Origin: Actinoallomurus sp.
GTDB lineage: Bacteria; Actinomycetota; Actinomycetes; Streptosporangiales; Streptosporangiaceae
Assembly (NCBI GenBank): GCA_025964685.1
Contig: JAOPYG010000332.1
Span: forward strand, 1 to 49,890
DNA length: 49,890 nt
Reading direction: 5' to 3'
In this document: one piece after another, positions 37,849 to 41,325 of the stretch
Position numbering within the stretch: position 1 is the first letter of the stretch
Layout of the letters: each line of letters starts with the position of its first letter
The notes under the pieces: model-generated
Told to the model about the DNA's origin: nothing
What the model saw: only the letters and a program-made list of their open reading frames with translations
Database searches by the model: none
Translations under genes and position numbers: made by a program

Positions 37849-37953
37849 TGATCATTCCCCCCGAACAGTGATCACAGGCCGTAGCAGGGCTCGGCCGTGT
37901 CTGTAACTGTACGGGTGCCAGAAGCAGGATGCCGACCGGTCACATCACCCACA

Positions 37954-37993
37954 TCACGGCAATGACCAGCGGTTTCTCTGGCATCTGCCGTGA
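37954..37993. terminator. Hairpin downstream of the fluoride-export operon
   Basis: TCACGGCA (37954-37961) pairs with TGCCGTGA (37986-37993), with an inner CCAG/CTGG pairing. It starts 22 bp past the stop of the last crcB (minus strand) and lies upstream of the sensor-kinase gene. Confidence 0.5.
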
Positions 37994-38014
37994 CGGCTCA
38001 GCGGCCCGGCACCA

Positions 38015-38377
38015 TCACAGTCCGACACCGAGGGCGTACCCGGCCGCGGCGGCCAGCACGCCCGCGAGCAGGCTGACGAGAGCGTTGAGCCCGGCCTCGA
38101 GCAGGGAGCCCTCCTCCAGCAGGCGGGTGGTCTCGTACCCGAACGTGCTGAAGGTGGTGAAGGCACCGCAGATGCCCGTGCCGGCGAAGACGACCATGTC
38201 CGCCGGCAGCGACCGCGCGGCGCCGGTGAGCAGGCCCAGCACCAGGCAGCCGATCAGGTTGACGGTCAGAGTGCCCCAGGGGAAGACGCTCTCATGGCGC
38301 CGCTGCACGGCGCGGTCCAGGAGATAGCGGACGGGGGCGCCGATGGTGCCGCCGAGGAACACCAGCAGGATGGTCAT
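38015..38377 (-). CDS. crcB: Fluoride channel CrcB/Fluc, second subunit
   Basis: 120 residues, four membrane helices. Fluc motifs: [34 protein letters not shown] (pore Asn) and [16 protein letters not shown] (the TTFSTF phenylalanine box and the central sodium site). Fluc proteins are dual-topology dimers exporting fluoride. Two paralogues in tandem usually make an antiparallel heterodimer. It is the last gene of the operon, its ATG overlapping the DUF190 stop by 4 nt (ATGA). Confidence 0.95.
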
Positions 38378-38745
38378 GGCGCCTCCTTCCCGCGACGGCG
38401 GCCCGTGTCCTTGGCGCGGCCGGCGTAGCGGTACACCTCGACGTCATCGATGATCACCAGGCCCTCGTCGATGAGCCCGTCGAGCTCGGGCAGGAAGGCC
38501 TCGATCCGGTCCTCGGCGTCGACGATCACGATGGCGACGGGCAGGTCGTCGCTGAGGGACAGGATGCGGGTGGTGTGGATGTGGGACGAGGCGCCGTACC
38601 CCTCGATGCCGTGGAACACGCTCGCGCCCGCGAGACCGTGTTCGTGTGCCCGGTGGACGATCTCGGTGTAGAGCGGCCGGTGGTGATGCTGGTCGGTGTC
38701 CCCGATGAAGATCGTCAGTCGGCGCGCGCGACCGTGCAGCCTCAT
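38374..38745 (-). CDS. DUF190 protein in fluoride operon
   Basis: 123 residues from ATG 38745, with GGAGAGAG just upstream. DUF190 motifs: [81 protein letters not shown]. This is a small ferredoxin-fold, PII-like protein frequently encoded beside crcB. Its role is not established; trimeric signalling or regulation of the channel is a plausible guess. Sandwiched between the two crcB genes with 4-nt overlaps on both sides, so the three subunits are tightly co-translated. The C-terminal [14 protein letters not shown] is a charged tail. Confidence 0.92.
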
Positions 38746-39254
38746 GTGCTCTCTCCGTCCCGTGCCCGCCCGACTCCGGCGACCAACCGTGCGAGGGTGA
38801 TACCGCACCAGACCGCGGCCACACCGCCGACCAGGCTGCTCAGCGCGTACGCGTCGGCGAGCGCCCAGGCGTCGTGCGCGGCCAGGCCGCGGATCTCCAC
38901 GGCGAAGGTGGAGAAGGTCGTGAATCCGCCGAGGATCCCGATGCCGGCGAATGGCCGTACGTACCGGCGGGGCGGCCAGACCTCCAGGACGAACACCATG
39001 AGGGCGCCAAGGAGCAGACATCCGCTCAGGTTGATGAGGAAGGTGGCCCAGGGAAACTGGCCCGGGCGTACCGGGAGGGCCGTGGAGAGGAGATAGCGCG
39101 CCACGCTGCCGAGTCCGCCGCCGAGAGCGATCACGGCGAGGATGTCCAGCCGCCGGTCGCGCCGCGCCGGCCGGGGGACACGGAAGACGTCCTGTCCGGA
39201 CCGCTCGTGGACGTCGGTGGACGGGCCGTGCGGGTCGATCGGACCGTGCGTCAT
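38742..39254 (-). CDS. crcB: Fluoride channel CrcB/Fluc, first subunit
   Basis: 170 residues from ATG 39254, with AGAGGA ~8 nt upstream. A ~35-residue hydrophilic N-terminal extension ([20 protein letters not shown]) precedes the four-helix Fluc core: [36 protein letters not shown] (pore Asn) and [16 protein letters not shown]. The extension is longer than in its partner. First gene of the operon, its start codon overlapping the stop of a 24-codon leader ORF (TGATG), and under the riboswitch at 39348-39396. Confidence 0.95.
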
Positions 39255-39328
39255 CACGACGTCCTCTCGCTGGGAGCGGTCGTGGTGATCTCGGCGGCAT
39301 CGTGTGGCCGAAACCGGTGAGCGGGCAT
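39254..39328 (-). CDS. 24-codon leader ORF coupled to crcB
   Basis: ATG 39328 has AGGGAGG with a 4-nt spacer directly after the fluoride-riboswitch-like structure. The peptide starts [17 protein letters not shown] and its TGA overlaps the crcB ATG by one base (TGATG), a classic termination-reinitiation arrangement. The ribosome-binding site is part of a hairpin that competes with the aptamer. It could be a true leader peptide or simply the ribosome entry point for crcB. Confidence 0.5.
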
Positions 39329-39347
39329 GGGACCTCCCTGACCTTGG

Positions 39348-39396
39348 CCAGGGACCGTCAGCGGGTCGTCCGCGGTTCGAGGTGAGCCCCATCACC
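39348..39396 (-). promoter_or_regulatory. Fluoride riboswitch (crcB RNA motif)
   Basis: Read on the minus strand, the region shows the crcB-motif layout: GGTGATGGGGCTCACC (5' pairing with the GATGG box), then TCGAACCGC, a variable loop, and CGCTGACGGTCCCTGG. This matches the known aptamer blocks GGxGATGxGGC, xAACxGC and CTGAxGGxCxCT closely and lies directly upstream of a crcB operon. The 3' strand GGTCCC can pair with GGGGCT in the aptamer. Alternatively CCCTGGCC pairs with GGTCAGGG at 39335-39352, hiding the AGGGAGG ribosome-binding site. That predicts translation ON with fluoride. Motif blocks are from memory. Confidence 0.8.
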
Positions 39397-39485
39397 TGTT
39401 GCGATCTCCATTGTGCCGTACGGGCCTCCCCCCGTGCACAGACGACCCGTGGCCACGGAGGGCGCACGGGTGCGTGTCCGTGCCT

Positions 39486-39512
39486 TGTCGACGGGGTCGA
39501 ACGGGAGACGAC
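39486..39512 (+). promoter_or_regulatory. ECF42-type promoter, distal copy
   Basis: TGTCGA (39486-39491), 17-bp spacer, CGAC (39509-39512). This matches the ECF42 promoter pattern as I recall it (TGTCGA at -35, CG[A/T]C at -10). It lies 125 bp upstream of the DGPF gene, which precedes the ECF42 sigma gene. Confidence 0.6.
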
Positions 39513-39562
39513 AGGATCGACATCTGCGGCGAAGATTCCGGGAGAAAAGGGTTCGGCCGACG

Positions 39563-39589
39563 TGTCGATCGGGTCGGCTCCCGTTCGAC
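39563..39589 (+). promoter_or_regulatory. ECF42-type promoter, proximal copy
   Basis: TGTCGA (39563-39568), 17-bp spacer, CGAC (39586-39589), identical in elements and spacing to the copy 77 bp upstream while the spacers differ. It ends 47 bp before the DGPF gene ATG. Confidence 0.65.
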
Positions 39590-39636
39590 GCGTAGGCAAA
39601 GGCCGGACCGAACCGGCCCGGAAGGAGACAACGGCG

Positions 39637-39972
39637 ATGCGATTCATGCTGATGACCAAGGGCGATGAACAGTCCACGGGCAACCCGCCGGACGAGAACA
39701 TGATGATTGAGATGGGGAAGTTCATCGAGGAGATGACCAAGGCGGGCGTGCTGCTCGCGACCGGCGGCCTGGACCCCAAGGGCATCCACATCAAGAACTC
39801 CGGCGGAAAGATCACGGTCACCGACGGGCCCTTCGCCGAGGCGAAGGAGGCCGTCGTCGGGTTCGCGCTCATCGACGTCAGGTCGAAGGAGGAGGCGATC
39901 GAGCTCTCCAAGCGCTTCTGGAACATCGTCGGAGACGGTGAGGGTGAGATCCGCCAGGTCTTCGGTCCGTAA
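39637..39972 (+). CDS. DGPF/YCII-related protein
   Basis: 111 residues from ATG 39637, with GAAGGAG ~8 nt upstream. YCII-like ferredoxin fold: MRFMLMTKGDEQSTG at the start, MGKFIEEMTKAGVLLATGGLDPKG, and the family-defining TVTDGPFAEAKEAVVGFALIDV. DGPF proteins are small dimeric alpha/beta barrels of unknown reaction, almost always encoded with ECF42 sigma factors and believed to be their targets. Here the sigma gene follows after 90 nt and two matching promoters precede it. Confidence 0.93.
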   Translation: MRFMLMTKGDEQSTGNPPDENMMIEMGKFIEEMTKAGVLLATGGLDPKGIHIKNSGGKITVTDGPFAEAKEAVVGFALIDVRSKEEAIELSKRFWNIVGDGEGEIRQVFGP

Positions 39973-40062: not shown

Positions 40063-41325
40063 GTGACGGTTCCGGATGTCCATCGCGCGATCGACGCGGT
40101 GTGGAGGCTCGAGTCCGCCCGGATCATCGCCGGACTGACGCGGATCGTGCGCGACGTGGGCGTCGCCGAAGAACTCGCGCAGGACGCTCTGGTCGTCGCG
40201 CTGGAGAAGTGGCCCGAGTCAGGCGTGCCGGATAATCCGGGCGCCTGGCTCATGGCCACCGCGAAGCACCGGGCGATCGACCGCCTCCGCCGCGACAAGC
40301 GGCTGGAGACCAAGCACGAACAGCTCGGTCACGAGCTGGAGACCGGCCAGGATTCGCCCGAGGCGCAGATCGACGCCGCGCTCGACGACGAGGTGGGCGA
40401 TGACCTGCTGCGTCTGATGTTCATCTCCTGTCATCCGGTGCTGTCCACGGAGGCGCGCGTCGCGCTCACCCTCCGCCTGCTCGGTGGCCTGACGACCGAC
40501 GAGATCGCACGTGCCTTCCTCGTGCCGGAGCCGACCGTCGCCCAGCGGATCGTGCGGGCCAAGCGCATGCTCGCCAAGAAGCAGATCCCGTTCGAGGTCC
40601 CGCCGGAGGCCGAGCGCGCCGCGCGGCTCTCATCCGTGCTCGAGGTCGTGTACCTGGTCTTCAACGAGGGCTACGCCGCCACCGCCGGAGACGACTGGAT
40701 GCGGCCCGTGCTGTGCCAGGAGGCACTGCGCCTCGGCCGGGTCCTGGCCGAGCTCGCCCCGCGAGAGCCGGAGGTCCACGGCCTGGTCGCGCTCATGGAG
40801 ATCCAGGAGTCCCGCTCGGCGGCCCGGGTCGGCCCGTCGGGCGAGCCGGTGCCCCTGCTCGAACAGAACCGCGGACGCTGGGACCGGCTCCTCATCCGCC
40901 GCGGCTTCGCCGCGCTGCTGCGCGCCGACGAGACCGGCGCCCCGCTCGGCCCGTACGTCCTGCAGGGCGCGATCGCCGCCTGCCACGCCCAGGCGTCCAG
41001 CGCTGAGGAGACCGACTGGGCGCGCATCGCGACGCTGTACGAGGCGCTCGCCCGGCTCACGCCCTCGCCGGTGATCGAGCTGAACCGCGCGGTCGCCCTC
41101 GGCATGGCCTTCGGGCCCGCCAAGGGCCTGGAGCTCGCCGACCGGTTGCTGGACGAGCCGTCGCTCACCGGCTACCACCTGCTGCCGAGCGTGCGCGCCG
41201 ACCTGCTCGCCCGGCTCGGCCGCTCCGGCGAGGCGCGATCGGAGTACGAGCGCGCGGCGGCGCTCACGCGCAACGCCCGCGAACGCAGGTTGCTCCTCGA
41301 ACGCGCCGCCGCGTGCGGACGGTGA
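40063..41325 (+). CDS. ECF42-group sigma factor with C-terminal TPR-like extension
   Basis: 420 residues from GTG 40063 (weak ribosome-binding site). Sigma region 2: VWRLESARIIAGLTRIVRDVGVAEELAQDALVVALEKWP and AWLMATAKHRAIDRLRRDKRL (residues ~8-85). Region 4: ALTLRLLGGLTTDEIARAFLVPEPTVAQRIVRAKRML (~130-170). The ~240-residue C-terminal domain (LEVVYLVFNEGYAATAGDDW, HGLVALMEIQESRSAAR, LIRRGFAALLRADE, NRAVALGMAFGP) is the DUF6596/TPR-like extension that replaces an anti-sigma factor in ECF42 proteins. Input signal unknown. It probably activates the tandem promoters of the DGPF gene just upstream. Confidence 0.93.
   Translation: MTVPDVHRAIDAVWRLESARIIAGLTRIVRDVGVAEELAQDALVVALEKWPESGVPDNPGAWLMATAKHRAIDRLRRDKRLETKHEQLGHELETGQDSPEAQIDAALDDEVGDDLLRLMFISCHPVLSTEARVALTLRLLGGLTTDEIARAFLVPEPTVAQRIVRAKRMLAKKQIPFEVPPEAERAARLSSVLEVVYLVFNEGYAATAGDDWMRPVLCQEALRLGRVLAELAPREPEVHGLVALMEIQESRSAARVGPSGEPVPLLEQNRGRWDRLLIRRGFAALLRADETGAPLGPYVLQGAIAACHAQASSAEETDWARIATLYEALARLTPSPVIELNRAVALGMAFGPAKGLELADRLLDEPSLTGYHLLPSVRADLLARLGRSGEARSEYERAAALTRNARERRLLLERAAACGR

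Follow-up and report, generated by a model that had tools for sequence, protein, structure and literature searches.

A fluoride riboswitch in Actinoallomurus that may pass translational control to crcB through a short leader cistron

In the window, by which we mean the whole 49,890-nucleotide stretch of Actinoallomurus DNA analyzed here, a fluoride riboswitch precedes a crcB–DUF190–crcB operon, and a 24-codon open reading frame (ORF) lies between the Shine-Dalgarno (SD) site adjoining the riboswitch and the start of the first crcB gene. This layout is real, is kept in most riboswitch-bearing loci of the genus, and is part of a wider pattern. We consider it likely that the riboswitch, turned ON by fluoride, acts translationally on the short leader cistron, which would in turn pass control to crcB. 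Without fluoride, the segment UCCCUGG would pair with the leader SD (AGGGAGG) and block it; with fluoride bound, the aptamer pseudoknot would engage the switching strand, leaving the leader SD exposed. Ribosomes would then translate the 24 leader codons, with the peptide itself presumably unimportant, and this translation would open a hairpin predicted over the crcB SD and start. The terminating ribosome would be brought onto the overlapping TGATG, leading to translation of crcB; alternatively, the opened crcB start would admit a new ribosome at the inner SD (GAGAGG), and both routes may operate. The DUF190 gene and the second crcB would follow via ATGA overlaps. We infer that the aptamer binds fluoride, that the leader is translated, and that crcB expression depends on this translation; the arrangement would then constitute a natural bicistronic design behind a riboswitch.

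The riboswitch and leader ORF in the window

The sequence-only reading had proposed a fluoride riboswitch from a set of minus-strand elements, all of which are present where it placed them, and the covariance model concurs: the match to RF01734 (36.5 bits) is above the Rfam Fluoride gathering cut-off of 34 bits, and is the sole match at E ≤ 0.001 in its genome (88% complete). Folding the aptamer region without pseudoknots gives only a slight advantage over shuffled sequences (z −1.99). In the window, the P1 loop and the 3′ strand can form the GGGGC/GUCCC pseudoknot with all five of its base pairs complete. All 30 aligned sequences likewise have standard pairs throughout the five, although the pattern used to fetch 24 of these rows prescribes the 5′ strand and one base of its partner; the pairing is near-invariant, with little covariation. 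Helices 1 and 2 of this alignment test are used here; its P3 columns were misassigned, which voids helix 3 and the overall measures. Upstream of the aptamer, the motif GGCA(C/G)AATGG is common to the window locus (L001), to four further loci of the genus (L002–L005), and to the aptamer-less locus L136, and transcription probably starts a few bases downstream of CACAAT; no promoter-like site emerged from a scan with the sigma-70 consensus. The fluoride-related genes downstream of the aptamer are two CRCB genes (PF02537), and the crcB–DUF190–crcB operon named by the sequence-only reading is matched by Pfam gene by gene (PF02537, PF02641, PF02537). Genes near the operon encode a CHASE3-HAMP-GAF-HATPase sensor kinase (37848–35887, minus strand) and a DUF6596-containing sigma-70 region 2/4 protein (40063–41325, plus strand).

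The claim that the 3′ strand of the aptamer has two mutually exclusive partners stands, as both pairings are in the sequence and the SD hairpin covaries. In the alternative pairing, UCCCUGGCC (39354–39346) pairs with GGUCAGGGA (39343–39335), the latter overlapping the greater part of the SD AGGGAGG; eight of these pairs appear when the 31-base segment is folded (total −14.8 kcal/mol). Across 30 aligned actinobacterial sequences, 94.3% of the cells of the SD hairpin are paired, and one inner pair changes between U-A (20 sequences) and C-G (6 sequences). The covariation score, the share of paired cells, and the number of double changes were each reached by none of 500 shuffles, whereas 191 of the 500 reached the count of pairs that had double changes and 27 reached the count of pair types. 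This alignment comprises 30 of the 33 folded sequences: L092 and L099 (no such hairpin) were left out, as was L124, in which the hairpin forms but is followed by no start; non-actinobacterial loci and family loci except L001–L005 and L080 are likewise omitted. There are no intrinsic-terminator-like sites in positions 37900–39700. Given an SD that can be sequestered by the switching strand and no terminator-like site, the natural reading is that the window riboswitch would be a translational expression platform, ON with fluoride.

The 24-codon ORF behind the riboswitch SD (39328–39254) is present as previously described: its TGA (39256–39254) shares the A with the crcB ATG (39254–39252), which gives TGATG, and there is an alternative crcB start, GTG, at 39257. 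That description did not include the second SD within the leader ORF, GAGAGG, which has a duplex energy of −9.0 (GTG start) or −10.2 (ATG start) kcal/mol. Bicistronic designs are defined by an inner SD within the first cistron and an overlapping stop and start, and the window has both, in the form of GAGAGG and TGATG. A crcB start inside the aptamer, where the frame is open in L001, was rejected: in L002 this frame is stopped just before +43, inside the leader. The features are collected in Table 1.

Table 1. Features of the riboswitch, leader ORF and crcB operon in the window
Feature	Position	Strand	Remarks
−10-like element CACAAT	39410..39415	−	Upstream of the aptamer; common motif GGCA(C/G)AATGG
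Fluoride riboswitch aptamer (RF01734)	39342..39405	−	36.5 bits, E 1.4e-6; all 64 model positions matched
Pseudoknot 5′ strand GGGGC	39386..39390	−	Partner GUCCC 39355–39351
Switching strand GUCCCUGGCC	39346..39355	−	Partner GGGGC (presumed fluoride-bound form) or leader SD
SD-pairing arm GGTCAGGGAGG	39333..39343	−	Includes leader SD AGGGAGG 39339–39333; opposite the switching strand
Leader ORF, 24 codons	39254..39328	−	Same arrangement in L002, L003 and L004
Predicted hairpin over crcB SD and start	39254..39288	−	From fold; predicted opening cost 14.5 kcal/mol
Second SD GAGAGG for crcB	39263..39268	−	Within leader ORF, 8 bases before crcB ATG
crcB, first copy (170 aa)	38742..39254	−	PF02537, E 1.4e-27
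DUF190 protein gene	38374..38745	−	PF02641, E 1.1e-38; ATGA overlap with first crcB
crcB, second copy (120 aa)	38015..38377	−	PF02537, E 8.9e-30; ATGA overlap with DUF190 gene

Recurrence in the genus and across fluoride-riboswitch loci

The DUF190 protein was found in all eight Actinoallomurus genomes searched, and an Rfam Fluoride match at E ≤ 0.001 in five of the eight; genome G006 has a second, weaker match (E 0.00105) with no gene assigned to it. In four of the five Rfam-positive loci (L001–L004), an SD-led leader ORF ends on the crcB start, and the leader is therefore conserved in relatives, with varying length and constant overlap: 24, 21, and 19 codons with TGATG in L001, L002, and L003, and 8 codons with GTGA in L004. 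The leader and crcB starts are 74, 65, 59, and 23 bases apart, respectively, in every case 2 modulo 3. The fifth locus, L005 (A. purpureus), has GTGCCGTGA alone after the SD and is filed by the sorting rule given below as a direct start (+19); a second ORF at this locus also ends on GTGA. MP occurs in the leader peptides of three of the four loci, which otherwise share little sequence, and the ER near the C-terminus of the L001, L002, and L004 peptides is what the inner SD GAGAGG encodes. Based on the varying length and the scarcity of shared peptide sequence, we infer that translation, and not the peptide, would be what is kept; a peptide function of the genus leader as the main reading was rejected on the same grounds. 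As for the other genus loci, L136 (genome G007) is without aptamer and leader and keeps the promoter-like motif, SD, and crcB, and its region around 903–978 offers a natural comparison that should be fluoride-independent. In L137, crcB starts directly, and an aptamer-like sequence is visible by eye that the Rfam search did not report; inspection of the L135 locus revealed no aptamer.

A single stop/start overlap is not rare by chance (at L001, 0.33 under the shuffle-and-jitter null described below, or 0.28 with the start fixed by profile), and the case thus rests on conservation and recurrence. Across L001–L004, the chance per locus is 0.06–0.33 (shuffle and jitter) or 0.23–0.28 (profile-fixed start); for the four genus loci jointly, with L005 set aside, it is about 4e-4 under the former, compared with a product of about 4e-3 under the latter.

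For recurrence, 129 fluoride-riboswitch loci were collected, 90 via genus, family, and order searches and 39 via a pattern scan; matches from the searches were taken at E ≤ 0.001, with one more admitted at 0.00105, and 13 weaker matches were left out. Main genes were assigned by five profiles. Exclusion of the 28 loci without a profile-assigned gene, and of three copies (L093 of A. soli, L101 of A. purpureus, and L114 filed under Actinomadura sp. DC4, which duplicate L004, L005, and L002, respectively), left 98 non-duplicate loci, which were sorted by the start codon with the best SD, 5–50 bases after the aptamer. This start belongs directly to the main gene in 45 loci and to another ORF in 47, and 6 loci have no SD-led start. 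Among the 47 leader loci, 33 have an ORF (of at most 71 codons) whose stop falls exactly on a main-frame start; shuffling the stretch between leader start and conserved domain, with jitter in its length, gives an expectation of 8.8. With the main start set by profile position instead, 27 of the 47 overlap, compared with 6.9 expected; the profile seeds include tested loci, so that the assigned starts are partly circular, a circularity that the shuffle-and-jitter count relaxes, although the loci remain related. Taking a single locus from each combination of class and genus (21 groups) gives on average 15.6 overlaps, compared with 3.9 expected, and the largest P over 2000 one-per-group draws is 3.7e-6. 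As for membership of these sets, L095, L104, L116, and L128 are within the 33 only, and the MutS-like L044 and L053 are within the 33 and outside the profile-fixed 27. The doubtful L108 (Alicyclobacillus), with a weak TTG start and a strong crcB SD, is in the 33, in the profile-fixed 27, and in the separate 27-locus inner-SD set; L031, with a 182-codon ORF, is in the inner-SD set only.

The gene classes, which we name from the look of their sequences and presume to be hydrogenase/NuoH-like (FHL4), MutS-like, UspA-like (Usp), and pyrophosphatase (PPase), differ in how often the overlap occurs. Both counts give 7/10 for the crcB class, 14/17 for FHL4, and 5/5 for the UspA-like class, and the MutS-like class has 3/5 by the shuffle-and-jitter count or 1/5 by the profile-fixed count. 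As an independent control on start placement, UspA-like genes lie directly behind the riboswitch SD in L012, L042, and L058, and the homologous start ends a 10–15-codon leader in L016, L021, L022, and L057; L023 can be read either way, being filed as direct, yet possessing a 15-codon leader with a GTGA overlap. The 25 hydrogenase-like loci comprise 7 direct starts, 14 coupled leaders, 3 non-touching leaders, and 1 without an SD-led start. The inner SD likewise recurs: in 27 crcB, FHL4, and Usp loci (L031 and L108 being doubtful) its mean is −6.1 kcal/mol, compared with −3.2 kcal/mol in shuffles, and it is at −5 kcal/mol or better in 78% of the loci, compared with 28% of shuffles.

The leaders before the hydrogenase/NuoH-like gene share, across several genera, a stretch P-G-K/N/E/D that is usually preceded by E-P-P or E-x-P (L014, L018, L019, L024, L027, L037, L039, L040, L045, L048, L049, L055, and L064); at this stretch, the DNA of some seems capable of folding into a GC-rich hairpin. 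Such sharing of peptide sequence suggests a single old leader in this class, and given also that the loci are related, the numbers above show maintenance more than independent origin. Five genomes of the family (G027, G050, G055, G336, and G337) have 5–6 RF01734 matches each at E ≤ 0.01, and the genes behind these multiple matches include MutS-like, UspA-like, and hydrogenase-like genes.

The pyrophosphatase loci, mostly from Streptomyces, were considered as further cases of coupling and rejected, with 0/10 leaders touching the profile-based start; 4/10 touch some main-frame codon (the shuffle-and-jitter count). In 7 direct loci the SD-led ORF shares the frame of the gene; in the others it stops 13 bases inside the gene (L095, L116, and L128) or at another place. 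Inorganic pyrophosphatase is a fluoride-inhibited enzyme. In the Streptomyces pyrophosphatase riboswitches (L094, L095, L103, L106, L109, L110, L116, L121, and L128) the SD-led ORF is C-rich, often begins MPA, and is in frame with the gene or not, depending on the species.

Class-wide, beyond the window, 29 of 38 matches were analyzed, and of the 19 with a profile-assigned gene, 14 are direct, 1 is coupled (L164), and 4 are neither; L145, which has no profile match, looks coupled by eye. Further coupled leaders precede crcB in L100 (10 codons; a Gemmatimonadota MAG) and occur in L080 (37 codons; from another family of the same order). The coupled layout is frequent in the family of the window and sporadic elsewhere in the loci examined.

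Modes of coupling and rival explanations

The sequence-only reading had specified termination-reinitiation as the mode of coupling. Coupling via the leader ORF is supported by our analysis, while termination-reinitiation specifically is not: crcB has its own SD and a start that is predicted to be costly to open (14.5 kcal/mol), to which unfolding by the leader ribosome is equally well suited. A narrower form of the favored reading, by unfolding only, has the crcB hairpin opened by the ribosome on the leader, after which a fresh 30S subunit would bind GAGAGG with no reinitiation; it is a credible one to which we give somewhat less than an even chance. It is consistent with the usual spacing of GAGAGG, with the excess of inner SDs over shuffles in the 27 loci, and with predicted opening costs of the crcB start of 14.5, 12.1, 10.6, and 6.3 kcal/mol in L001–L004, although these costs stand without a genome-wide background, and shuffled versions of the 126-base stretch from the SD to crcB fold just as well (z 0.53). 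Unfolding would not call for an exact overlap, yet 33 of the 47 leaders have one. The exact stop/start overlap speaks for reinitiation, whereas the inner SD and hairpin speak for ribosome-driven unfolding.

We regard as unlikely a Rho-dependent control in which a blocked leader SD would leave the leader untranslated and Rho would end transcription, the leader ORF serving mainly to shield the RNA. Such control is reported for a riboswitch-uORF leader of Mycobacterium tuberculosis in the available text of PMC12810186, and mean C-G is 0.099 after the riboswitch start in 10 crcB leader loci, compared with −0.021 further downstream, with higher values in the pyrophosphatase loci (0.242 in 7 direct and 0.165 in 10 leader loci). 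However, in L001–L005 the highest C-over-G values of 78-base windows near the leader (0.15–0.27) do not exceed the highest inside the genes (0.23–0.29), there is no C-over-G excess in the other gene classes, and the exact stop/start overlap would again be needless. If the leader were a chance open frame and crcB were translated independently from its own SD, as the persistence of SD and crcB without aptamer or leader in L136 and the chance of any one overlap might suggest, the riboswitch SD hairpin would control nothing; we therefore find this improbable, and the joint occurrence at four genus loci and the recurrence in other gene classes argue against it as well. More improbable still is a leader peptide that itself acts as a sensor or small protein, for which the stretch shared by the hydrogenase-class leaders would be suggestive; the genus peptide is not conserved, and is reduced to 8 codons in L004. 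Against the favored reading of a leader cistron that relays the fluoride signal to crcB, direct starts match leaders in frequency (45 and 47 of the 98 loci, respectively).

Related systems and significance

The nearest known system is the B12 riboswitch–uPPE2–ppe2 locus of M. tuberculosis, in which, as evidenced by mutants and westerns, PPE2 needs translation of the uORF and termination-reinitiation dominates (available text of PMC11260477). As in that system, a riboswitch in the window would govern the initiation region of a short uORF, and the uORF stop overlaps the main start (AUGA in ppe2); the window fits this type of relay in that the SD under riboswitch control serves a short ORF with a stop codon overlapping the start of the following gene. 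The two differ in ligand and direction (B12 and OFF in ppe2; fluoride and presumably ON in the window), and in that PPE2 has no SD (PMC11260477), whereas crcB has GAGAGG inside the leader. Furthermore, the ppe2 system is a single locus established by experiment (PMC11260477), whereas the fluoride layout is known from sequence at many loci and in several gene classes. The Mbox-uORF leader of M. tuberculosis pe20 likewise works through a translational platform with an upstream ORF as its first target, although it differs in responding to Mg2+, in having a conserved peptide, and in Rho-dependent termination (available text of PMC12810186); the word “overlap” is absent from the main text of that paper, as available (PMC12810186).

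For fluoride riboswitches themselves, translational action is presumed or assumed in the available texts of PMC8814607 and PMC13273304. In the latter, 1901 fluoride riboswitch sequences were characterized for intrinsic termination, and the term “uORF” is absent from its available text; the Pseudomonas syringae and Burkholderia pseudomallei variants described there belong to the same aptamer class and had no fluoride-dependent termination in the assay, and the available text mentions no leader ORF between their SD and gene (PMC13273304). Predicted targets of the crcB motif include transporters and DNA repair proteins (available text of PMC7266159). Engineered counterparts are the synthetic bicistronic design (PMC5995908) and the nonsense-ORF booster (PMC13255528), which, as described in the available texts, likewise place a short ORF just before the target gene, the latter with an inner SD beside the short-ORF stop as in the window leader; unlike the natural arrangement in the window, both are devices that, in those texts, have no riboswitch in front (PMC5995908; PMC13255528). 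A review of translational coupling, in its available text, presents two proposed models, including a named unfolding model, and allows that short ORFs may deliver ribosomes (PMC12548453). Among the matches listed in a search of the open-licence literature, we found no report of a fluoride riboswitch with a leader ORF. The suggestion that a riboswitch acting through a leader ORF is new thus survives for fluoride and not in general, given the published B12 riboswitch with a uORF and AUGA overlap (PMC11260477).

We place at about even odds a broader proposal, that Streptosporangiaceae-like actinomycetes possess a portable bicistronic coupler with free leader sequence and length, an inner SD, and an exact overlap, which would pass fluoride control to crcB, hydrogenase/NuoH-like, UspA-like, and some MutS-like genes, and would insulate the switch from the start region of the gene. 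If true, ribosome delivery via a throw-away leader cistron would be a common riboswitch solution in GC-rich actinomycetes, beyond one B12 case, and would explain how one expression platform can serve unrelated genes. Annotation would also be affected, since leader ORFs and main starts would be easily misplaced, and the leaders would offer natural riboswitch-driven bicistronic parts for actinomycete engineering.
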